A DNA stretch of 64,000 nt from Nisaea sediminum (GTDB lineage: Bacteria > Pseudomonadota > Alphaproteobacteria > Thalassobaculales > Thalassobaculaceae): positions 62,001-126,000 of the forward strand of contig NZ_JACZCQ010000002.1 of assembly GCF_014904705.1 (NCBI RefSeq), given 5' to 3'. A program made the position numbers and the translations under genes. The number at the start of each line of letters is the position of its first letter. Position 1 is the stretch's first letter. Shown here piece by piece: positions 3,759-54,352 of the stretch. The notes beneath the pieces were generated by a model. It did no database searches. It was not told the DNA's origin and saw nothing but the letters and a program-made list of their open reading frames with translations.

Positions 3759-5339
3759 CTATGGCAGGATCTCGTCATAAAGATTTATGAGCCGATGGAT
3801 TTCCTTGTCCATGCCTCGATCTCTGTTGAAGCGCTTGATGTTCTCGAAAGCCGCGGCGCGATCGAAGCTGCGGATCTTTTCACCGGCGTGGGGAATCTCG
3901 TCGTGACTGAGCGTGAGGCCCATTCCTTCACGCTCGAGCAATTCGGCCATGTATTTGTATTCTGAGTTGATGATGACCGGGAGTCCCGCTTCCAGGTACG
4001 AGTAGAGCTTGGTCGACACGCTTGTTTCGAGCTGTTCCTGATAGCTCCAAGTCCCTTCGGATGGCATCAGGGAGAGAATGATGCCGAAATCATTCGTGCA
4101 GATCGTTCTCGAGAGTTCGTTTTGCGGAACGCCTTCGTGCAGCTTCAGACCGGGATAGGTCGCGGCGAGCTCCAGGAAATGCTCAAGACCGCGTTCTCCG
4201 TAACTGCGTAATACACTCAGATAAACGTTGATCTCGAAACCCTGCTCAAGAAGCAGGGCCCAGGTCTCCGGATTGTACTGCTCCGCGAAGAGGCGCCCGG
4301 GATGCGTGTCCGTCCGGGGCATCAGGCCGCCGCAGAATACAAGCTTGATCGGGTCCTCCGGGGCGGCCGGCTCGGTTCTGTAGTGGATGTATTCCGCGCA
4401 GGCGGATTGCTGAATCTCCAGCTGCCGAGGCGTGGTGGCCCCATAGTTCCTGGCGAGCCGGTCAATGAAGGGCGGATAGAAGCGATGGATGACCGCGTCC
4501 GCGTGGTTGAAAATATAACGCTCCATCTCGACATCCAGATCGATGCCGGCGGGCCAGTAAATCTTCTTCAGAATGTCGGTCGGCGCGAAGACCGAGGTGA
4601 TGTCATAGAACTCGCAGACAAGCTTTCCGGTCGTCTTGTTCTCATTGATGAAGCGCGCCATGAAGTACTCGTGCATCAGGCATTGGACATGGAAGATGTC
4701 GGGCTTCAGGAGCGGAAGAAGTTTTCCGAGCGTATGATAGGATCCGATACTGTCGAAGACGATGTGGAACGCTTCGTTGAAGAACGGTTTGAGGCTATCT
4801 CCGATCGGATTGAGGTTCAGCAGCGTGACCTTGTAGCCGTTGCGCCGCAGGTACAATGCTTCGCGCTGTATCACATTGAAACTGTTACGAGCGACAAAGA
4901 CGACGGAACCCTTGAACTGGGTCCCATTTGCGGATTTGTCGACTGACGCCGCAAAAGCCTGAAAAGCATCCTTATAGGCTTTGTCGATAAACCGGTCGAA
5001 GGTCGCCCTGATAAAGGCGATATCGACTTTCGGTTTCACTGCCTCGAAGAGTTCCTGAAGATATGCACCGAGCTGGTCGCCCGCGGGTACGGATTGCGCT
5101 CCGAATTTCTTTGCGTCTTCGGGACTCAAGAGGGTGAGGGCTTGCTCCACGAAGGCCTGCACCTGCAGCTCGTTCTGCAGATAGATTTTCGGTTGGTATT
5201 GCTCATAGGCCGCATCGTTGGTCGGGACGTAGGGGATATTGGACTGGGTCAGATCGAGATAGAGTTTGTCGAGGTCCGCGCGCGGAGTGCTGATTTCCGG
5301 CATCATGACGTCGGACCGGCGTCCGATGAACTCGATCAT
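3759..5339 (-). CDS. Glycosyltransferase-like protein (GT-B type)
   Basis: Predicted cytosolic glycosyltransferase of 526 residues. The middle carries a Rossmann-like block with KVTLLNLNPIGDSLKPFF and the phrase KPDIFHVQCLMHEYFMARF, typical of nucleotide-sugar transferases acting on surface glycans. The C-terminal half begins at KLVFCGGLMPRTD and ends with KLYSYLEAGLPVIINSEY near residue 455, which resembles the donor-binding region of GT4-like enzymes. The first 100 residues do not resemble a known domain. I prefer ATG 5339 to the GTG at 5348 because GGAG sits 8 bases before it. It has no neighbouring polysaccharide genes, so the acceptor is unknown; flagellin or cell-surface sugar are only guesses. 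Confidence 0.72.
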   Translation of the reverse strand: MIEFIGRRSDVMMPEISTPRADLDKLYLDLTQSNIPYVPTNDAAYEQYQPKIYLQNELQVQAFVEQALTLLSPEDAKKFGAQSVPAGDQLGAYLQELFEAVKPKVDIAFIRATFDRFIDKAYKDAFQAFAASVDKSANGTQFKGSVVFVARNSFNVIQREALYLRRNGYKVTLLNLNPIGDSLKPFFNEAFHIVFDSIGSYHTLGKLLPLLKPDIFHVQCLMHEYFMARFINENKTTGKLVCEFYDITSVFAPTDILKKIYWPAGIDLDVEMERYIFNHADAVIHRFYPPFIDRLARNYGATTPRQLEIQQSACAEYIHYRTEPAAPEDPIKLVFCGGLMPRTDTHPGRLFAEQYNPETWALLLEQGFEINVYLSVLRSYGERGLEHFLELAATYPGLKLHEGVPQNELSRTICTNDFGIILSLMPSEGTWSYQEQLETSVSTKLYSYLEAGLPVIINSEYKYMAELLEREGMGLTLSHDEIPHAGEKIRSFDRAAAFENIKRFNRDRGMDKEIHRLINLYDEILP

Positions 5340-5484
5340 AGAATACACTCCGTCCGGATGCGGTGCGGTCCGATTGGATCAGATTGAAATAGCTCTAAGA
5401 ATTTCCCCTTGATGCGTCAAGCCGTGCACGGGGCGCAGAGGGCAGAGCCTTGAGGGATGGCTTCAGGTCCACAAGTAATTATCG

Positions 5485-20732: not shown

Positions 20733-22016
20733 ATGGGTCTTCTCATTCTGCTCGGCGTCTTCGCCGTCTGCGTCGTCATCGGCGTGCCCGTCGCCTTCGC
20801 GCTGGCCGTTGCAGCTGTAACCGCCTTTTTCGTCGAGGGACTGCCGCTGGTCGTCGCCTTCCAGCGTATCATTTCCGGGATCAACGTTTTCTCGCTGATG
20901 GCGATCCCCTTCTTCATCTTCGCCGGCGAGCTCATGTTCCATGGCGGCATTGCGATCCGGCTGGTGCGCTTCGCCTCGGCGGCGGTCGGCAAGGTTCGCG
21001 GCGGGCTCGGCGTGGTGAACGTGCTCTCCTCGATGCTGTTCGGCGGCATCTCCGGCTCGGCGGTCGCGGACATCTCCGCGCTCGGCTCGATCCTGATCCC
21101 GGTGATGAAGGAGAAAGGCTATGACGACGATTACGCGGTCAACGTGACCGTGACCTCGTCGATCGCCGGCATCCTGGTGCCGCCGAGCCATAACATGATC
21201 CTGTTCGCCATCGCCGCGGGCGGCGGGATCTCGATCTCGCAGCTCTTCCTGGCCGGCGTCGTGCCTGGCGTGCTGATGTGCATCTGTCTCGCTGTCGCGG
21301 CCTATCTGATCGCCGTCCGCCGCAACTATCCGGTCGAGGTCTTCCCCGGCTTCACTGCCCTCTTCCTCAGCTTCGTGGCCGCCCTGCCGGGGCTCTTCAC
21401 GGCCGTGATCATCGTCGGCGGCGTGCTCTCCGGCATCTTCACGGTGACCGAGTCCGGCGCCTTCGGCACGCTCTATGCTTTTCTCGTGACCCTCATCGTC
21501 TATCGCTCGCTCAGCTGGGAGGCGTTCAGAACCGCGGTGGTCAACTCGGTCCGGACGACCTCGATGGTTCTGATCCTGGTCGCCTCGGCGACGGCATTCG
21601 CCTACATGCTGACCTTCTACCAGGTGCCGTCTCGGATGATCGATTTCATGACCGGCGTGACGGAAAACCCGATCGGCATGCTGCTGATGATCAACGCCAT
21701 GCTGCTGATCCTCGGCATGATCATGGACATGGCGGCACTGATCCTGATCTGCACGCCGATCTTTCTGCCGGTCGTCATTTCCATCGGAATGGATCCCGTG
21801 CAGTTCGGCATGATCCTGATGATGAATCTCGGGCTCGGGCTTTGCACGCCGCCGGTCGGGGCATGCCTCTTCCTCGGCTGCGCGGTCGGAAAAGTACCGA
21901 TCGAGCGGGCGGTGAAGACGATCTGGCCGTTCTATGCGGCGATCCTTGTCGCGCTGATGCTGACGACCTTCATTCCGGAGATATCGCTGACCCTGCCGCG
22001 CCTGATTGAAGGATAA
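20733..22016 (+). CDS. dctM: TRAP transporter large permease, DctM family
   Basis: Inner-membrane transporter subunit of 427 residues with about 12 hydrophobic helices. Family features include SLMAIPFFIFAGELMFHGG near 50-68, FGGISGSAVADISALGSILIP (in part) near 102-120, and LGLGLCTPPVGACLFLGCAVG near 368-388. It moves the solute captured by DctP using an ion gradient. Its stop and that of the convergent SMP-30 gene are three bases apart. Substrate is inferred from udh and kdgD to be a sugar acid. Confidence 0.95.
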   Translation: MGLLILLGVFAVCVVIGVPVAFALAVAAVTAFFVEGLPLVVAFQRIISGINVFSLMAIPFFIFAGELMFHGGIAIRLVRFASAAVGKVRGGLGVVNVLSSMLFGGISGSAVADISALGSILIPVMKEKGYDDDYAVNVTVTSSIAGILVPPSHNMILFAIAAGGGISISQLFLAGVVPGVLMCICLAVAAYLIAVRRNYPVEVFPGFTALFLSFVAALPGLFTAVIIVGGVLSGIFTVTESGAFGTLYAFLVTLIVYRSLSWEAFRTAVVNSVRTTSMVLILVASATAFAYMLTFYQVPSRMIDFMTGVTENPIGMLLMINAMLLILGMIMDMAALILICTPIFLPVVISIGMDPVQFGMILMMNLGLGLCTPPVGACLFLGCAVGKVPIERAVKTIWPFYAAILVALMLTTFIPEISLTLPRLIEG

Positions 22017-24748: not shown

Positions 24749-25888
24749 ATGCCCCTCGCCTGCCAGCGCGACAAGTTCGACCTGCCCGATGGCGTTTCCT
24801 ATCTCAACACGGCCAGCCAGTCGCCGTGCCTCAGGAGCAGCTTCGAGGCGGGTGAGCGAGGATTGCGGCGAAAGCTGCATCCCTGGACACCGGAGCGGGG
24901 CAATCTCGGCCCGGAGATGGAGCGCTGCCGTACCCTCTTCGGCGGGCTCATCGGCGCAGGCTCCGACGATATCGCTATCTGCTTCACCACCAGCTACGGC
25001 ATCGCGACCGCGGCCGCCAATCTCCGCCTCGAGCCGGGCAAGGACGTGCTGATGCTCGGCGGCCAGTTTCCGTCAAACGTCTATGCCTGGATACGTCTCG
25101 CGCGTATCGCCGGCGGCGACGTGCGTCTGGTGCGGCGCGGGGAGGATTTTGATTGGACCGGACCGGTGCTGGAATCGCTCGACGACGGGGTCGGGATCGT
25201 CGCCCTGCCGAACTGTCACTGGTCCGACGGTGCGCTGGTCGATCTGGAGGCGGTCAGCGCCGAATGCCGCCGACGCGGCATCCCGCTGGTGGTCGACGCG
25301 ACCCAGTCTATCGCGGCGCGGCCCTTCGATCTGAAGACGGTGCAGGCGGATTTCGTCATCGCCTCCGGCTATAAGTGGCTGCTCTGCCCCGATACGATGG
25401 GCTTCATGTATGTCGCGCCGAAACACCAGCGCGGCATGCCTCTGGAACTGAACCAGCAGGCCCGCACCGGCGCGCCCTCGATGGAGACCGGCGACGGCCT
25501 CGGCGGAGAGCTGAAACCGAGCGCGCGGCGCTACGACATGGGCGCCGCCGACAGCATGGTGCACATGCCGATGTCGCTCACGGCGCTGGAGCAGATCGAG
25601 GAATGGACGCCGGCGGCGATCCACGAGTATCTGACGCGGCTGGTCGATGCGGTTGCGGACAAGGCGGCAGAGCGCGGGCTGAAGCATCCGCCGAAGGAGC
25701 GCCGGATCGGGCATTTCATCGGCCTCTACCGCGATACCCCTTGGCCGGACGGTCTGGAGCAGAAGATGGCCGCGCGTGGCGTCCATATCTGCTTCCGGAA
25801 CAATGCGTTGCGGATAAGTCCTTACCTTTTCAACGACATGGGCGACATCGATCGCCTGTTCGCGGCGCTGGACGCTGAGCTCGCCTAG
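24749..25888 (+). CDS. Class V aminotransferase (kynureninase / cysteine desulfurase fold)
   Basis: PLP enzyme of 379 residues. The PLP lysine is K209 in IASGYKWLLCPD, the PLP-pyridine aspartate is D183 in LVVDATQS, and SYLNTASQSP near 17-26 is the N-terminal substrate region typical of class V. The active-site histidine and the cysteine expected of true desulfurases are not seen, so it could be a transaminase, lyase or racemase-type enzyme. Its stop shares CTAG (25885-25888) with the convergent codA-like gene. No pathway neighbour fixes the substrate. Confidence 0.85.
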   Translation: MPLACQRDKFDLPDGVSYLNTASQSPCLRSSFEAGERGLRRKLHPWTPERGNLGPEMERCRTLFGGLIGAGSDDIAICFTTSYGIATAAANLRLEPGKDVLMLGGQFPSNVYAWIRLARIAGGDVRLVRRGEDFDWTGPVLESLDDGVGIVALPNCHWSDGALVDLEAVSAECRRRGIPLVVDATQSIAARPFDLKTVQADFVIASGYKWLLCPDTMGFMYVAPKHQRGMPLELNQQARTGAPSMETGDGLGGELKPSARRYDMGAADSMVHMPMSLTALEQIEEWTPAAIHEYLTRLVDAVADKAAERGLKHPPKERRIGHFIGLYRDTPWPDGLEQKMAARGVHICFRNNALRISPYLFNDMGDIDRLFAALDAELA

Positions 25889-36627: not shown

Positions 36628-36674
36628 CGGCGCGAGAGCGCGCTTCACGACATCTGGTTGGACAGATGGCCCGC

Positions 36675-38264
36675 TCAGGCCATCTGCTCCTTCACCTTGA
36701 GGAACTTCACCTTCGGCCAGTTCTCGGCGGTGTGCTGAAGGTGCCAGCCGTTGCGGGCCATGAAGACCGGCATGTCGTCATGGTCGTCGGCGAGATCGCC
36801 CTGATTGGCGTCCATGAACTTCTTCAGCTCCGCCGGGTCGTCCGCCTCGAGCCAGCGTGCCGTGTGAAGCGCCGCAGGTTCGAAAGTGACGGGAACGTCG
36901 TATTCCGTGCGGATGCGGTCCGCCAGAACGTCGAACTGAAGGGCGCCGACGACACCGACGATCCAGCTTCCGCCGATCCGGGTTTTGAAGGCCTTCGCCG
37001 CGCCTTCTTCCGCAAGCTGGACGATCGCCTTCTCGAGATGCTTGGCGCGGAGCGGGTCGGTCGGCCGGACCCGCTGCAGCAGTTCCGGCGCGAAGCTCGG
37101 GATGCCGTTGAACTGCAGATCCTCGCCCTCGGTCAGCGCATCGCCGATCCGCAGGTTGCCATGGTTCGGAATGCCGATGATGTCGCCGGGCCAGGCCTCG
37201 TCGGCGATTTCGCGATCCTGCGCCAGGAACATCACCGGATTGTGGATGTTCATGATCTTGCCGCTGCGGACATGCTTCAGCTTGGCGCCGCGCTTGAAAT
37301 GTCCGGAGCAGATTCGCGCGAAGGCGATACGGTCCCGGTGCTTCGGATCCATATTCGCCTGGATCTTGAAGACGAAGGCCGCGACCTTCTTCTCGTCCGG
37401 ATTGACCTTGCGGGTCTTGGTCGGGTGCGGGCGCGGCGACGGCGCATAGCGTGCGACACCGTCGAGCAACTCGCGGACGCCGAAATTGTTCACCGCGCTG
37501 CCGAAATAGACCGGGGTCATGTGGCCGCCGAGAAAGGCCTCCGGATCGAATTCCGGACAGAGCCCGCGCGCCATCTCGACTTCCTCGCGCAGCTGGTTGA
37601 CGGCGGAGGCCGGCAGCAGCTGATCCAGCTTCGGATCGTCGAGACCCTTGCAGGTCTGACCCTCATCCGGTGCGTCGTGGCTGCCGCGCTCCATCAGGAT
37701 CAGCTTGTCGTTCAGGAGATCGTAGCAGCCGCGGAAGCTCTTCCCCATGCCGATCGGCCAACTCGCCGGCGTCACGTCGAGCGCGAGGCTCTGCTCGATC
37801 TCGTCGATCAGCTCGAAACTGTCGCGCGCCTCTCGGTCCATCTTGTTGACGAAGGTGATGATCGGCACGTCGCGCAGGCGGCAGACCTCGAACAGCTTCA
37901 GGGTCTGTTCCTCGATGCCTTTCGCGCCATCGATCACCATGATCGCACTGTCGACCGCGGTCAGCGTCCGGTAGGTGTCCTCGGAAAAGTCCTCGTGGCC
38001 CGGCGTGTCGAGCAGGTTGAAGGTGTTGTTCCCGTAGTCGAAGGTCATGACCGACGAGGCGACCGAAATGCCGCGCTCGCGTTCGACCTTCATCCAGTCG
38101 GAATGCGCACGCCGCTGCTGACCGCGCGCCTTGACCGCGCCCGCCATCTGGATGGCGCCGCCGAACAGCAGCAGTTTTTCCGTGAGCGTGGTCTTACCGG
38201 CGTCCGGGTGCGCGATGATCGCGAAGGTGCGCCGGCGCTCGACCGCTTGGTGCAGGGAACTCAT
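36675..38264 (-). CDS. prfC: Peptide chain release factor 3
   Basis: Translational GTPase of 529 residues that recycles RF1/RF2 from the ribosome. The G1 loop AHPDAGKTTLTEK is near 18-30, the switch region RERGISVASSVMTF near 62-75, G3 DTPGHEDFSEDTYR near 86-99, and G4 NKMD in FVNKMDREARD. RF3-type domains 2 and 3 follow, including GALQFDVLADRIRTEY near the C-terminus. ATG 38264 is used rather than the TTG one codon upstream. It is a single-gene unit between convergent DUF1203 and divergent P1 peptidase. Confidence 0.97.
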   Translation of the reverse strand: MSSLHQAVERRRTFAIIAHPDAGKTTLTEKLLLFGGAIQMAGAVKARGQQRRAHSDWMKVERERGISVASSVMTFDYGNNTFNLLDTPGHEDFSEDTYRTLTAVDSAIMVIDGAKGIEEQTLKLFEVCRLRDVPIITFVNKMDREARDSFELIDEIEQSLALDVTPASWPIGMGKSFRGCYDLLNDKLILMERGSHDAPDEGQTCKGLDDPKLDQLLPASAVNQLREEVEMARGLCPEFDPEAFLGGHMTPVYFGSAVNNFGVRELLDGVARYAPSPRPHPTKTRKVNPDEKKVAAFVFKIQANMDPKHRDRIAFARICSGHFKRGAKLKHVRSGKIMNIHNPVMFLAQDREIADEAWPGDIIGIPNHGNLRIGDALTEGEDLQFNGIPSFAPELLQRVRPTDPLRAKHLEKAIVQLAEEGAAKAFKTRIGGSWIVGVVGALQFDVLADRIRTEYDVPVTFEPAALHTARWLEADDPAELKKFMDANQGDLADDHDDMPVFMARNGWHLQHTAENWPKVKFLKVKEQMA

Positions 38265-38365
38265 CAAACCGTCCTTGTTGGAGAACGCCGTGTATATAAA
38301 GATTTTGTGCGATCAGTCCAATAGACGATCCTTAGAGGCGGGTATGCCTCGTTTGGGGAGGAAAG

Positions 38366-48825: not shown

Positions 48826-48939
48826 CGGTCTCACTCCCGGTTTGTCTGAAGCATCGGCTAGGATATAAATCAAAGCCTTGGCGTGTCAGCCCTCGGCCCG
48901 CGTCCTGGAGCCGCGCACTTAATAGCATCGGCGGATAAC

Positions 48940-51021
48940 TTGCGACCGGAAATTCTCTATTCCCTCTTTGCCGATACGACGCGCCTTCCCGGCGTCGGTC
49001 CGCGCATAGCCAAGCTGCTGGAGACTCTCGCCGGCCGTTCCGTGATCGACCTGCTCTGGCACCTGCCGAGCGGGATCATCGACCGGCGATTCAATCCGAA
49101 GATCGCGGATGCGCCGGACGATACGATTGCGACACTCGTCGTCACCGTCGGCGAACACCGGCCGGGACGCAGCCGCAAGCAGCCGTATCGGGTCAGCGCC
49201 TGGGACGAGACCGGTGAGATGGAGATCGTCTTCTTCAACGCCAAGGCGGACTATATCGGCCAGATGCTGCCGACCGGCACGCGCTGCGCGATCAGCGGCA
49301 AGGTCGAACATTTCAACGGCCGCCTGCAGATGACCCATCCGGACCACATGGTCCCGGAAGCGAAGATCAAGGAGATCATGCAGGTCGAGCCGACCTATCC
49401 GCTGACCCACGGGCTGACGCAGAAGACCCTGCGCAAGGCGATCGGCGCCGCCCTGCCCGAGGTGCCGGAACTGCCCGAATGGGGCAACAAACCGTTCCTC
49501 GCCATGCGGCATTTCCCGGATTGGCGCACCGCTTTGCTGGCCGCGCACGCGCCCGGATCGATGGAGGATATCGATCCGTCGGCCCTGCCGCGGCAGAGGC
49601 TGGCCTATGACGAGCTTCTGGCGAATCAGCTCGCGCTCGCCCTCGTTCGCGCGCACCAGAAGCGCCGGAAAGGACGCGTTTTCAAGGGGGACGGCAGGCT
49701 GCGGAAGAAGGCCGAAGACGCCCTTCCCTTCAAGCTCACCAACGCCCAGGCCGTGGCGCTCGCCGATATTTACGGCGACATGGCGGCGCCGGAGCGGATG
49801 CTGCGGATGATCCAGGGCGATGTCGGTAGCGGCAAGACGGTCGTCGCCCTGCTCGCCATGCTGAACGCGGTCGAATGCGGCGCGCAGGCGGCCATGATGG
49901 CGCCGACCGAAATCCTGGCGCGCCAGCATCTCGCCTCCATGCAGCCGCTGGCAGACGCCGCCGGTGTACGCATGGCGGTGCTGACCGGACGCGACAAGGG
50001 CAAGAGCCGCGCGGAGATTCAGGAGCGCATCGCCGCCGGCGAGGTCGATATCGTCGTCGGAACGCATGCGCTCTTCCAGGAGAGCGTTGCCTTCAAGGAC
50101 CTCGCACTCGCGGTGATCGACGAGCAGCACCGCTTCGGCGTGCATCAGCGGATGAGCCTTGGCGAAAAAGGCGCTGCCGTCGATACCCTGGTGATGACCG
50201 CGACGCCGATCCCGCGCACTCTCACCATGACCGCATACGGCGACCTCGACGTCTCGCGCCTGACCGAGAAGCCGCCAGGACGCCAGCCGATCGACACCCG
50301 CACGATCCCGCTCGGCCGTCTCTCGGAAGTAGCCGAGGCGATCGGTCGTTCGGCAGCATCGGGAAACAAGGCCTATTGGGTCTGTCCGCTGGTCGAGGAA
50401 TCCGAGAAGATCGACGTCGCCGCTGCCGAAGAGCGCTTCCAGCATCTGCGCCGGCTCTATCCGGACCGGGTCGGCCTCGTGCATGGCAGGATGAAGGCGG
50501 CGGAGAAGGACGCAGTCATGGACCGCTTCAAGAACGGTCCGCTCGATATCCTCGTCGCCACCACGGTGATCGAGGTCGGGGTCGACGTACCCGACGCGAC
50601 GGTCATCGTGATCGAGCATGCCGAACGCTTCGGTCTCGCCCAGCTGCACCAGCTTCGCGGCCGCGTCGGGCGCGGAAGCAAGGCCTCGACCTGCTTGCTG
50701 CTCTACAACACGCCGCTCTCGGAAACAGGCCACGCCCGGCTCGCAGTGATGCGGGAGACCGAGGATGGTTTCAGGATCGCCGAGGAGGATCTGAAGTTGC
50801 GCGGCGCGGGGGAAATCCTCGGCACCAAGCAGAGCGGCCTGCCGACGTTCCGGCTTGCCGATCTCGCGGTGCATGACGATCTTCTGGCAGCGGCCCGGGA
50901 CGATGCGCGCCTCGTGCTGAACAACGACCCGGAGCTGAAGGGCGAGCGCGGCGCGGCCTTGCGCACCCTGCTCTATCTCTTCGAGCGCGACGCCGCGATC
51001 CGCTATCTGCGGGGCGGCTAG
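48940..51021 (+). CDS. recG: ATP-dependent DNA helicase RecG
   Basis: Branch-migration helicase of 693 residues for stalled forks and recombination. The wedge domain is in the first 250 residues (ARLPGVGPR-like RLPGVGPRIAKLLE near 13-26). The motor has QGDVGSGKTVVALLAML, APTEILARQH, DEQHRFGVHQR, TATPIPRTLTMT and QLRGRVGRGSKASTCLL. I chose TTG 48940, giving the family-like start (L/M)RPEILYSLF; the frame is also open from GTG 48883, which would add 19 residues. Its stop shares CTAG with the ridA stop. Confidence 0.95.
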   Translation: MRPEILYSLFADTTRLPGVGPRIAKLLETLAGRSVIDLLWHLPSGIIDRRFNPKIADAPDDTIATLVVTVGEHRPGRSRKQPYRVSAWDETGEMEIVFFNAKADYIGQMLPTGTRCAISGKVEHFNGRLQMTHPDHMVPEAKIKEIMQVEPTYPLTHGLTQKTLRKAIGAALPEVPELPEWGNKPFLAMRHFPDWRTALLAAHAPGSMEDIDPSALPRQRLAYDELLANQLALALVRAHQKRRKGRVFKGDGRLRKKAEDALPFKLTNAQAVALADIYGDMAAPERMLRMIQGDVGSGKTVVALLAMLNAVECGAQAAMMAPTEILARQHLASMQPLADAAGVRMAVLTGRDKGKSRAEIQERIAAGEVDIVVGTHALFQESVAFKDLALAVIDEQHRFGVHQRMSLGEKGAAVDTLVMTATPIPRTLTMTAYGDLDVSRLTEKPPGRQPIDTRTIPLGRLSEVAEAIGRSAASGNKAYWVCPLVEESEKIDVAAAEERFQHLRRLYPDRVGLVHGRMKAAEKDAVMDRFKNGPLDILVATTVIEVGVDVPDATVIVIEHAERFGLAQLHQLRGRVGRGSKASTCLLLYNTPLSETGHARLAVMRETEDGFRIAEEDLKLRGAGEILGTKQSGLPTFRLADLAVHDDLLAAARDDARLVLNNDPELKGERGAALRTLLYLFERDAAIRYLRGG

Positions 51022-51413
51022 CCTTTCGGCTGACAGACCGCGTCGACCTCGAGCTCGACCAGCCAGTCCGGATCGACAAAGCCGGTAACCTCGACCACGG
51101 TGGTCACAGGGCGGATGTCTGCGAATACCTCTCCATGGGCGCGCGCCGCCTCTTTCCAGGTCTTGGCATCGGTCAACATGATGCGGGTGCGGACGACATC
51201 CTCCATCGCCCCGCCGGCATCCTCGAGCGCCTTCCGGATGATTTCGAGGCAGCGGACGGTCTGACGGTAGACGTCACCTATGCCGTCGGTCTTGCCGTCG
51301 CGCCCGATCGGAGCCGTTCCGGCGACGGCGATGAAATCTCCGGAGCGGACGGCACGGCTGAACCCGATCTGCGGCTCAAGATAGGAGCCGGATGAGACGA
51401 GAGTACGCGGCAT
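51018..51413 (-). CDS. RidA family protein (enamine/imine deaminase)
   Basis: A 131-residue trimer-forming protein of the YjgF/RidA family, which hydrolyses reactive enamines. GDFIAVAGTAPIGRDGK near 23-39 and QTVRCLEIIRKALEDAGG near 51-68 are typical. The catalytic arginine of active RidA is likely the one in VVRTRIMLTDA near 74. The C-terminal VELEVDAVC matches the family's usual ending. It is a single gene, convergent with recG. Confidence 0.92.
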   Translation of the reverse strand: MPRTLVSSGSYLEPQIGFSRAVRSGDFIAVAGTAPIGRDGKTDGIGDVYRQTVRCLEIIRKALEDAGGAMEDVVRTRIMLTDAKTWKEAARAHGEVFADIRPVTTVVEVTGFVDPDWLVELEVDAVCQPKG

Positions 51414-51463: not shown

Positions 51464-52171
51464 TTATTCGTCGGGCGAGGCGATCGCTTCAACATGAATC
51501 ACCGGCTTCTTCCGTTCGGACTCCGGACGCCGGTCGGGGGGCGTTACGATGCCCGCCGAGATCACCATCTTGATGCCTTCCTCGACCGTCATATTGAGGC
51601 GGTAGAGATCGCGGTCCGGAATGAACAGCAGGAACCCGGAGGTCGGGTTCGGCGTGGTCGGCAGGAAAACGTTGATCATCGTGTCGTCGGTCACGTTCTG
51701 GACCTCGCCGACGGTGCCGCCGGTGATGAAGCCGACCGCCCAGATCCCGCGCCGCGGATACTCCACCAGCACGACCTCGCGAAACGCGTTGGACTGCTGC
51801 GCCATCACGGTTTCCATGATCTGCTTGATGGCGCTGTAGACGTTGCGCACCACCGGCATCCGGGCGAGCAGGTGCTCGCTCAGCCGGATCATCCAACGCC
51901 CGAGAATACCCGCCGTCAGCCAGCCGATCAGGGTCAGCGTGGTCAGCATCACGATCAGACCGATGCCGGGCACGGAGAACGGCAGGAAGTTCTCAGGATG
52001 ATATTTTGCCGGCAGCAGCGGCATGATCTTGCCGTCGATGAAGTCGATAAAGACCCAAGTCAGATAGAGCGTGATGCCGAGCGGGGCTGTGACAAGGATG
52101 CCGGCAAAAAGATAGGCCCGCAGCCGCCCGAAGAATGTCGGCCGGACGATGCCGGAATTGTCCTTGGTCAT
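51464..52171 (-). CDS. DUF502 membrane protein
   Basis: A 235-residue inner-membrane protein of the DUF502 family. The first helix is LFAGILVTAPLGITLYLTWV near 17-36 and the second is IGLIVMLTTLTLIGWLTAGI near 71-90, followed by the conserved RIPVVR-like segment ARMPVVRNVYSAIKQIMET. The soluble part has VLVEYPRRGIWAVGFITGG and NVFLPTTPNPTSGFLL. No function is established; relatives in plants and bacteria have been linked to membrane trafficking and stress. It is a single gene here. Confidence 0.93.
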   Translation of the reverse strand: MTKDNSGIVRPTFFGRLRAYLFAGILVTAPLGITLYLTWVFIDFIDGKIMPLLPAKYHPENFLPFSVPGIGLIVMLTTLTLIGWLTAGILGRWMIRLSEHLLARMPVVRNVYSAIKQIMETVMAQQSNAFREVVLVEYPRRGIWAVGFITGGTVGEVQNVTDDTMINVFLPTTPNPTSGFLLFIPDRDLYRLNMTVEEGIKMVISAGIVTPPDRRPESERKKPVIHVEAIASPDE

Positions 52172-52238: not shown

Positions 52239-53111
52239 TCAGGTCGGGAGGAAGCCTCCGAGTTCGTCCAGAAGCCGCTCCGGCGCCTCTTCCGGAATGT
52301 AGTGCCCGGACGGCACGGAGCCGCCGGTCACCGGCGCGGTCGTATATCCCCGCCAGACCTCGAGCGGCCGGTAGAGCTTGCCGATGATCCCTTCGGCGCC
52401 CCAGAGTGCCAGAACGGGGATGTCGAGACGTTCGCCGCGATCGGCACGGTCATGTTCCAGATCGATTGTGGCGCCGGCACGATAATCCTCGCAGCTGGCG
52501 TGGATCGTGGCCGGATCGCGGAAACAGCGGAGATATTCCGCCATCGCCACTTCAGTGATGGCGGAGCCGTCGGCGAGGAATTTCATCTTCTTCGAGAGAT
52601 AGAAATCCGGATCGGCCCCGATCATCCGTTCGGGATAGTCCGCCGGCTGGATCAGGAAGAACCAGTGATAATAGGCCGAGGCGAAAGCCATGTCGGTGGT
52701 CTCGTACATGTCGAGCGTCGGGCAGATATCGAGCACGGCGAGCCGCTCGACCCGGTCCCGGTTGTCCCGCGCCAGCCTGTGGGCGACCCGTCCGCCCCGG
52801 TCATGCCCCACGACGGAAAACCGCTCGAAGCCCAGCGCAGACATCACTTCGGCCTGGTCCCGTGCCATCTCGCGCTTGGAATAAGGCATGTGCGCCGGAT
52901 CGGTCGGCGGCTTGCCGCTGTCGCCGTAGCCGCGGAGATCGGTCGCCACAACGGTGAAGCGTTCAGCGAGCTTCGGCGCAACCTTGTGCCAGATCGCGTG
53001 GGTCTGCGGATAGCCGTGCAGGAGCAGCAAGCCGGGCCCGCTTCCGCCGGTGACGAGGTTGATCTCCGTCCCGGAGGTCCTGATTCTTTTCCGCTCGAAA
53101 CCCTCGAACAT
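52239..53111 (-). CDS. Alpha/beta hydrolase resembling fluoroacetate dehalogenase
   Basis: A 290-residue hydrolase with an aspartate nucleophile. GHDRGGR at 102-108 supplies D104 as nucleophile plus R105 and R108; D128 (VLDICP), H149-W150 (YYHWFFL), Y210 (EDYRAG) and H270 (SGHYIPEE) complete a set that matches Burkholderia FAc-DEX (D104, R105, R108, D128, H149, W150, Y212, H271) in kind and almost in number. LLHGYPQTHAIWH is the oxyanion-hole region. ATG 53111 is used; the frame extends 15 residues upstream without family sequence. Haloacetate dehalogenase activity is likely. An epoxide hydrolase is the main alternative, but the HW pair argues against it. Confidence 0.85.
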   Translation of the reverse strand: MFEGFERKRIRTSGTEINLVTGGSGPGLLLLHGYPQTHAIWHKVAPKLAERFTVVATDLRGYGDSGKPPTDPAHMPYSKREMARDQAEVMSALGFERFSVVGHDRGGRVAHRLARDNRDRVERLAVLDICPTLDMYETTDMAFASAYYHWFFLIQPADYPERMIGADPDFYLSKKMKFLADGSAITEVAMAEYLRCFRDPATIHASCEDYRAGATIDLEHDRADRGERLDIPVLALWGAEGIIGKLYRPLEVWRGYTTAPVTGGSVPSGHYIPEEAPERLLDELGGFLPT

Positions 53112-53170: not shown

Positions 53171-54352
53171 ATGCAGCGTCCTGCCTCTCTCAGCAACTCG
53201 TCCCCGTCCTTCGGCGCGTCCGTCCGCGGGGCCTTCTCTCTTCAGCGGGACTACACCCATCTCAATCATGGATCCTACGGCGCGACTCCCGTCTCGGTGA
53301 TGGCCGCGCAGCGGATATGGCAGGACAAGCTGGAGCTGGAGCCGAGCCGCTTCATGCGGCGGGACTACAAACCGGGCATGCGTGCCGCCATCGCGGCACT
53401 GGCGCCGCGTCTCGGTGTCGGAACGGAGGGGCTGGCCCTGGTCGAGAACGCCACGCAGGCTGTCAATGCCGTGCTCCGCGAACTGGATCTGCCGGCAGGG
53501 TCTGACGTCCTCGTCACCGACCAGACTTATGGCGCGGTTAAGAACGCCGCACGCCACATGAGCGCGCGCAACGGCTGGAACTTGCGCAGCGTGACCCTGC
53601 CCTTCCCGGCTGCGTCGGCAGAGGAAATCATTGCTGCCTACAGTGCCGCCCTGGATCCGGCGCCCGCTCTTGTGATCCTCGACCACATCACCTCACCGAC
53701 GGCTCTCGTGCTGCCGCTGAGCGAAATGGCGGAGGCCGCCCGGGCAAGGGGCGCACTGGTGCTCGTCGACGGCGCCCACGCGCCGGGCATGCTGGATCTC
53801 GATCTCGGCACCATTCCCTGCGACTGGTACACCGGGAACCTGCATAAATGGATGTTCACACCGAAAGGCTGCGGCTTTCTCTGGACCACGGAGGCGCAAC
53901 GCGCCACGACGCATCCGCTGGCGATTTCCCATTGGTACCAGGAAGGCTACGGCGCCGAGTTCGAATATGTCGGAACGCGCGACGCCTCCAGCCAGCTCTG
54001 CCTGCCGAGTGCGCTGGACTTCATCGACGCACACGGCCAGGCCGCGATCCGCGCCTACAACAATGCGCTGGTCAACGAAGCGGCCGACATGTTGGCCGCG
54101 CGCTGGGGCACGGAACGTGGCGCGGGGCCTGCGCTGACCGGGCACATGGCGATGGTGCGCCTGCCAGATGGTTTCGGAAGCGCGCGAGAGGACGCCGAGG
54201 CGCTGCGCGATCGGCTGGTGGATGATTTCAGGATCCAGATTCCCATCAATCCGCTGACAGGCACGCTCTGGTGCCGGCTCTCGGCGCAGATCTACAATGA
54301 GATGGCGGATTACGAGCGGTTGGCGGAAGCCGTGGAAAGATTGGCCGGCTGA
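53171..54352 (+). CDS. Class V aminotransferase (isopenicillin N epimerase-like)
   Basis: PLP enzyme of 393 residues. The PLP lysine is K226 in GNLHKWMFTPKG, the pyridine-binding aspartate is D200 in LVLVDGAHAPGMLDLD, and YTHLNHGSYGATP near 28-40 forms the N-terminal substrate region. The GNLHKW motif places it with isopenicillin-N-epimerase-like and related racemases or C-S lyases rather than IscS. It starts 59 bases from the divergent dehalogenase-like gene, so the two may share a promoter region. Substrate is unknown. Confidence 0.87.
   Translation: MQRPASLSNSSPSFGASVRGAFSLQRDYTHLNHGSYGATPVSVMAAQRIWQDKLELEPSRFMRRDYKPGMRAAIAALAPRLGVGTEGLALVENATQAVNAVLRELDLPAGSDVLVTDQTYGAVKNAARHMSARNGWNLRSVTLPFPAASAEEIIAAYSAALDPAPALVILDHITSPTALVLPLSEMAEAARARGALVLVDGAHAPGMLDLDLGTIPCDWYTGNLHKWMFTPKGCGFLWTTEAQRATTHPLAISHWYQEGYGAEFEYVGTRDASSQLCLPSALDFIDAHGQAAIRAYNNALVNEAADMLAARWGTERGAGPALTGHMAMVRLPDGFGSAREDAEALRDRLVDDFRIQIPINPLTGTLWCRLSAQIYNEMADYERLAEAVERLAG

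Follow-up and report, generated by a model that had tools for sequence, protein, structure and literature searches.

The catalytic machinery of the fluoroacetate dehalogenases (FAcDs) has been described for FA1, in which Asp104 serves as the nucleophile and acts together with His271, Asp128 and the arginine pair Arg105/Arg108, and in which His149, Trp150 and Tyr212 make up the halide pocket (PMC11022551). The same paper, in its Table 2, reports activity on both fluoroacetate and difluoroacetate for NOS0089, which is Alr0039 of Nostoc sp. (3QYJ). According to PMC7429986, the motif DRxxRxxxR is a feature of the FAcDs as against the alpha/beta epoxide hydrolases. The genetic setting of such enzymes can be seen at two loci: on pUO1 the neighbours of dehH1 comprise a methyltransferase, a thioesterase, crcB and a LysR regulator, and a similar fluoroacetate locus on replicon g of Caballeronia S22 likewise contains a methyltransferase, a thioesterase and crcB (PMC11812338).

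Here we consider a gene from Nisaea sediminum, whose genome (5.02 Mb, 22 contigs) carries it within a stretch of 64,000 nucleotides that was analysed as a whole, henceforth the window. By sequence and by predicted fold its product is a new member of the known FAcD family, the closest named protein relatives being found at 93% in a Nisaea MAG and at 80% in N. denitrificans. Its ATG start coincides, in the phmmer alignment, with residue 1 of Alr0039.

Family membership and active-site residues

The original prediction held that the protein reproduces the catalytic and halide-binding residues of an FAcD nearly position for position, and a script locates D104, R105, R108, D128, H149, W150, Y210 and H270 at exactly the positions claimed. 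On alignment, this octet is identical in FA1 (1Y37), RPA1163 of Rhodopseudomonas palustris (3R3U), DehH1 of pUO1 (H1), Alr0039 and Daro3835, and also in D4B of Delftia acidovorans (9C9F, titled fluoroacetate dehalogenase). The Asp-His-Asp catalytic triad aligns with those of FA1 and RPA1163, and the His-Trp-Tyr halide pocket of the FAcDs is likewise present. To judge from the phmmer E-values, the agreement of the octet with the characterised FAcDs is far above chance.

Searched with phmmer against the PDB, the protein matches 3QYJ (Alr0039) at E=1.2e-112, 9C9F at 3.8e-97, 4NVR, which its depositors label 'putative acyltransferase', at 5.5e-90, RPA1163 at 2.1e-87 and FA1 at 1.4e-83. A further match, 4BAT (3e-81), bears the depositor label 'probable epoxide hydrolase', but we count it in the FAcD group because Alr0039 itself matches it at 1.3e-80. 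A second group starts at 7AC0 ('soluble epoxide hydrolase', 5e-47), and Cif, together with others carrying an epoxide hydrolase label, lies at about 1e-23 to 1e-28. Pairwise identities to the window protein in our own alignment amount to 59.2% for Alr0039 (287 positions), the nearest solved relative, 55.3% for 9C9F, 48.4% for RPA1163, 48.1% for FA1, 44.8% for Daro3835 and 44.3% for DehH1. The FAcD motif takes the form DRGGRVAHR (R105, R108, R112) and is common to 115 of the 121 family matches examined. The AlphaFold model (pLDDT 95.3) gives 3QYJ as its top Foldseek match (TM 0.98, rmsd 0.9), with RPA1163 at TM 0.96; the query-normalised TM ranges from 0.93 to 0.98 among the 50 chains listed, of which two belong to 4NVR and the rest to Alr0039 or FAcDs, bar a few time-resolved entries whose titles carry no enzyme name. 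The predicted activity, that of a dehalogenase of the FAcD type in both family and catalytic mechanism, is thus supported by sequence, motif and fold alike.

As regards curated families, Pfam places the protein among the alpha/beta hydrolases (Abhydrolase_1), and no NCBIfam family scores above its cut-off. Two other kinds of dehalogenase were considered and rejected, namely a haloalkane dehalogenase (PRK03592, 75.2 bits against a cut-off of 241) and a HAD-type L-2-haloacid dehalogenase, the protein matching Abhydrolase_1 and not TIGR01428. Three haloacid-dehalogenase-type-II genes (TIGR01428) score above the NCBIfam cut-off elsewhere in the genome.

The octet is meaningful but common, and on the sequences compared it is a feature of the family, not a peculiarity of this gene. 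Family matches at E<=1e-50 occur in 99 of 397 Pseudomonadota genomes, or about one quarter, with 125 matches in total. Leaving aside two matches of the N. sediminum genome, one same-genus orthologue and one sequence with an internal stop, a script finds the full octet in 87 of the remaining 121, and the 34 deviants differ chiefly at H149 (10 Pro, 9 Trp), D128 (8 Glu) and R108 (4 Tyr). It is near-invariant in an alignment of 114 sequences, a set that was partly pattern-selected. Because most members of so common a family share the octet, it does not single out C-F cleavage as the specific function of this gene. At nine of our loci, and in PDB 4NVR, the halide-pocket His149 is replaced by Trp. 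On plasmids, relatives occur in 363 records at E<=1e-30, none of which reaches 60% identity.

A maximum-likelihood tree of 114 rows, built by a quick method, pairs the window protein with the 93% relative, L009 (SH-aLRT 96), inside five same-genus sequences (99) and, more broadly, within a family clade of 10 rows (99). FA1 groups with DehH1 (100), and RPA1163 falls in a 13-row group together with a second FAcD-like gene of the N. sediminum genome (89, long branches).

The chromosomal setting of the gene

Table 1. Positions of the FAcD-family gene and its neighbours in the window, with residue roles of the protein predicted by homology
Feature	Position	Strand	Evidence or arrangement
recG	48883..51021	plus	NCBIfam RecG 1107.7 bits, cut-off 785
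RidA/RutC-like (Ribonuc_L-PSP) gene	51018..51413	minus	Pfam PF01042, E=4.3e-23; 50 bp after DUF502
DUF502 gene	51464..52171	minus	Pfam PF04367, E=3.4e-37; 67 bp downstream of the FAcD gene, same strand
FAcD-family alpha/beta-hydrolase gene	52239..53111	minus	ORF with ATG start, 290 aa
Class V aminotransferase-like gene	53171..54352	plus	Pfam PF00266, E=2.2e-20; divergent from the FAcD gene
Predicted nucleophile, base and acid	D104, H270, D128		By homology
Predicted carboxylate-binding residues	R105, R108		By homology
Predicted halide pocket	H149, W150, Y210		By homology

The FAcD gene is set among chromosomal housekeeping genes, in the order mfd-recG-RidA-DUF502-FAcD, and not in a fluoroacetate cluster. 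The recG gene is convergent with the FAcD-DUF502-RidA run and is followed on its far side by mfd, and genes of the gyrase-A type and for uvrA are found further along the window. The matches of the RidA-like gene to the NCBIfam families RutC and TIGR00004 fall below cut-off. An Rfam scan of the window listed two tRNAs and nothing else. The earlier remark that no pollutant-degradation context is obvious here holds among the 25 other annotated proteins of the window. A second class V aminotransferase-like gene occupies 24749-25888, and three long ORFs at 1140-2774, 3759-5348 and 36666-38324 (544, 529 and 552 aa) give no Pfam match at E<=1e-8.

The FAcD-DUF502 arrangement is chromosomal and common to Rhodospirillales-like lineages, and is not a catabolic island. 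In 61 related genomes, many of them fragmented assemblies whose coordinates were compared by eye, an FAcD match (E<=1e-40) occurs in 36 and DUF502 in 47; the best FAcD match adjoins DUF502 in 11, that of N. sediminum among them, and the remaining 25 genomes with FAcD matches have none beside DUF502. Among 80 named loci, which are the best matches of the scan and 76 of which have at least 700 bp downstream, DUF502 lies directly downstream on the same strand in 18, and in 11 of these recG is found beyond it on the opposite strand. The RidA gene (at least 80%) is present at five loci, representing four same-genus genomes including that of the window, since L012 and L039 are apparently one locus, and it was not detected at the locus of the closest relative (93%, L009/L038). 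For DUF502 itself the structure prediction is of low confidence (pLDDT 67, pTM 0.35), and our literature search found no title on its bacterial function.

Unlike the loci of pUO1 and S22, the gene has no crcB, thioesterase or methyltransferase among its annotated neighbours, and the reading of this locus as a fluoroacetate-utilisation cluster was therefore dropped. The single CrcB match of the genome is on contig C13, the window gene being on C2, and a search of the genome for a fluoride riboswitch found none in the 150 candidates scored, out of 732 at first look. The GlcD-like genes of the genome score below the curated cut-off. On an Acetobacter plasmid, the genes around a copy named 'haloacetate dehalogenase H-1' include an MFS transporter and a TetR regulator, neither of which points clearly to a substrate.

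The pocket cap and the predicted chemistry

Where the window protein departs from most of its described relatives is in the loop capping the pocket. A Trp (W185 of RPA1163, W180 of H1) occupies this position in five of seven references, RPA1163, FA1, H1, Daro3835 and Alr0039, and the other two have Arg (9C9F) and Gln (4NVR). In the window protein the loop is shorter and the cap position is taken by Leu179 or Phe178, the alignment being uncertain here by one residue and the confidence of the model at its lowest (pLDDT 81-84). Thus Alr0039, alike in octet and fold, and FA1, H1 and RPA1163 all keep a Trp that the window protein lacks. D4B is likewise without it, so that the cap Trp is not universal in the FAcDs, but has an Arg in its place, as do most of the tartrate-dehydrogenase-linked proteins considered below. 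The nine orthologues of the same clade as the window protein (L009-L017) show Leu, Ile or a gap at the cap, and Trp is kept in all 14 of the other DUF502-linked relatives aligned. The second FAcD-like gene of the genome (G000:C1:249078-249959; L002:1501-2394), 52-53% identical to the window protein, has the complete octet as well as the cap Trp.

From its family and modelled fold, the gene product is very likely an FAcD-type 2-haloacid dehalogenase acting by hydrolysis, with a mechanism predicted by homology. A 2-halo acid would be held at its carboxylate by R105 and R108 and attacked at its alpha-carbon by D104 in an SN2 step, the leaving halide being stabilised by H149, W150 and Y210; water activated by H270, with help from D128, would then hydrolyse the aspartyl ester, leaving a 2-hydroxy acid and halide as products. 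In the absence of the Trp that closes off the alpha-substituent side in the five references, the pocket may be widened, and the everyday substrate is probably a 2-halocarboxylate larger than haloacetate, with fluoro- and chloroacetate also accepted as small substrates. The role of the enzyme could be the scavenging or detoxification of natural halo acids in a marine setting, the genus Nisaea being marine.

Variants of RPA1163 at Trp185 have been crystallised with bulky 2-fluoro acids, as the titles of PDB entries state, and smaller residues at this position are described as allowing the turnover of bulky alpha-fluoro acids (PMC12955510). The same source reports that growth selections of H1 on 2-fluoropropionate retained Trp180 almost exclusively, and for this reason efficiency of the window protein on fluoroacetate should not be assumed. 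By analogy, the absence of the cap Trp might mean no more than a lower activity on small acids.

A plainer account would have the protein be a fluoroacetate dehalogenase in the strict sense, its real job being the detoxification or use of fluoroacetate. Octet and fold are the same as in FA1, H1 and RPA1163, and FAcDs have been argued likely to have evolved to react with natural fluoroacetate (PMC12350541), but the missing cap Trp, annotated neighbours so different from those at pUO1 and S22, the location of the sole crcB match on another contig and the lack of a fluoride riboswitch among the candidates scored all speak against this account, which we consider unlikely. In addition, a family present in a quarter of the Pseudomonadota genomes seems too common to answer a rare toxin.

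Tartrate dehydrogenase linkage and alternative substrates

At least 14 of the 99 FAcD-bearing Pseudomonadota genomes have a tartrate-dehydrogenase-like gene on the strand of the FAcD gene and 22-69 bp from it, where a crude uniform random placement would lead one to expect about 0.003 genomes; the count compares 125 FAcD rows with 88 tartrate-dehydrogenase rows, the best listed down to about E=1e-140. These genomes span nine genera and five families, and all four representatives of the tartrate-dehydrogenase genes that were tested (from L064, L103, L108 and L133) pass the cut-off of NCBIfam TIGR02089. Directly downstream of the FAcD gene, such a gene is found at seven of the 80 named loci (L064, L065, L067, L086, L103, L108, L113), which add the Bacteroidota (L067, L108) and the Dormibacterota (L064), and at the Aquimarina locus (L108) a gene for a DASS anion symporter precedes those for the FAcD and the tartrate dehydrogenase. 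The cap residue in the 121-sequence sample is Arg in 11, Gln in two, Gly in one and Trp in none of the 14 linked proteins, whereas 50 of the 107 unlinked ones have Trp and 18 have Arg, unlinked meaning here that no strong tartrate-dehydrogenase match lay nearby among the matches listed. The corresponding Fisher P values, 3.5e-4 for Trp and 6e-6 for Arg, are inflated by shared ancestry, and the linked members from the Bacteroidota keep the cap Trp, which counts against a strict rule. For these relatives the linkage hints at C4 hydroxy-diacid products.

Applied to the window protein, the same idea would make it an epoxy- or halo-dicarboxylate hydrolase, forming, for example, meso-tartrate from trans-epoxysuccinate or D-malate from L-2-halosuccinate at an FAcD site with a wider pocket. 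Cif-type enzymes open their epoxide with a His/Tyr pair, and the pair H149/Y210 could do likewise; the linkage in at least 14 genomes and the gene order in Aquimarina also favour such a substrate. However, the window gene adjoins DUF502, the two tartrate-dehydrogenase-like matches of its own genome (one on C1, the other on C2, 44 kb away) lie beside neither FAcD-like gene, and the Arg that caps most of the linked group is not present. Literature searches on tartrate dehydrogenase together with FAcD or halosuccinate, on epoxysuccinate hydrolase and on trans-epoxysuccinate found nothing decisive, passages of PMC6429283 included; among the papers listed, none was seen to link tartrate dehydrogenase with an FAcD or to propose C4 halo- or epoxy-diacids as substrates of the linked branch, and searches on natural FAcD substrates and on 9C9F were similarly indecisive. 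For the window protein, we regard a dicarboxylate substrate of this kind as distinctly improbable.

In epoxide hydrolases, according to PMC7429986, the nucleophile is followed by an aromatic residue, and the X of the sequence HGXP is aromatic too. In the window protein the residue directly after D104 is Arg and not aromatic; X is aromatic (Tyr34), an epoxide-hydrolase-like point, but it is also aromatic in FA1, H1 and RPA1163 (Phe) and in Alr0039 (Tyr), and thus does not discriminate here. An ordinary epoxide hydrolase or esterase with FAcD-like residues, to which the labels of 4BAT, 7AC0, Cif and others, Tyr34, and a Serratia serine hydrolase with mixed esterase and dehalogenase activity (PMC13230308) might point, is very improbable in view of R105 and the DRxxRxxxR motif, a nucleophile that is Asp and not Ser, and the position of 7AC0 at least 35 orders of magnitude below the FAcDs, with 4BAT inside their group.

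A wider reading of the family is possible though on balance doubtful: that the family was not shaped by fluoroacetate; that in the tartrate-dehydrogenase-linked branch the change of the cap Trp to an Arg binding a second carboxylate serves the hydrolysis of C4 epoxy- or halo-dicarboxylates to tartrate or D-malate; and that the Nisaea enzyme represents another branch, in which the cap Trp was given up to accommodate a larger natural substrate, a 2-halo or an epoxy acid, activity on fluoroacetate being a by-product. FAcD relatives are found in about a quarter of the sampled Pseudomonadota (99/397) despite the scarcity of C-F natural products (PMC11812338). The octet in a housekeeping locus, the loss of the cap Trp and the tartrate-dehydrogenase linkage would direct attention to 2-halosuccinate, epoxysuccinate and longer 2-halo acids as alternatives. 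Were this reading true, the origin of biology's C-F-cleaving enzymes would be partly explained, and defluorination efforts could start from naturally wide-pocketed enzymes.

The second FAcD-like gene of the genome adjoins another alpha/beta hydrolase gene, and near it lies a gene of the isocitrate/isopropylmalate-dehydrogenase type (L007:143-1216, minus strand) that scores below the tartrate-dehydrogenase cut-off. Within the window, a gene for a TRAP-type DctM transporter, a possible carboxylate importer, occupies 20733-22016, about 30 kb from the dehalogenase gene.
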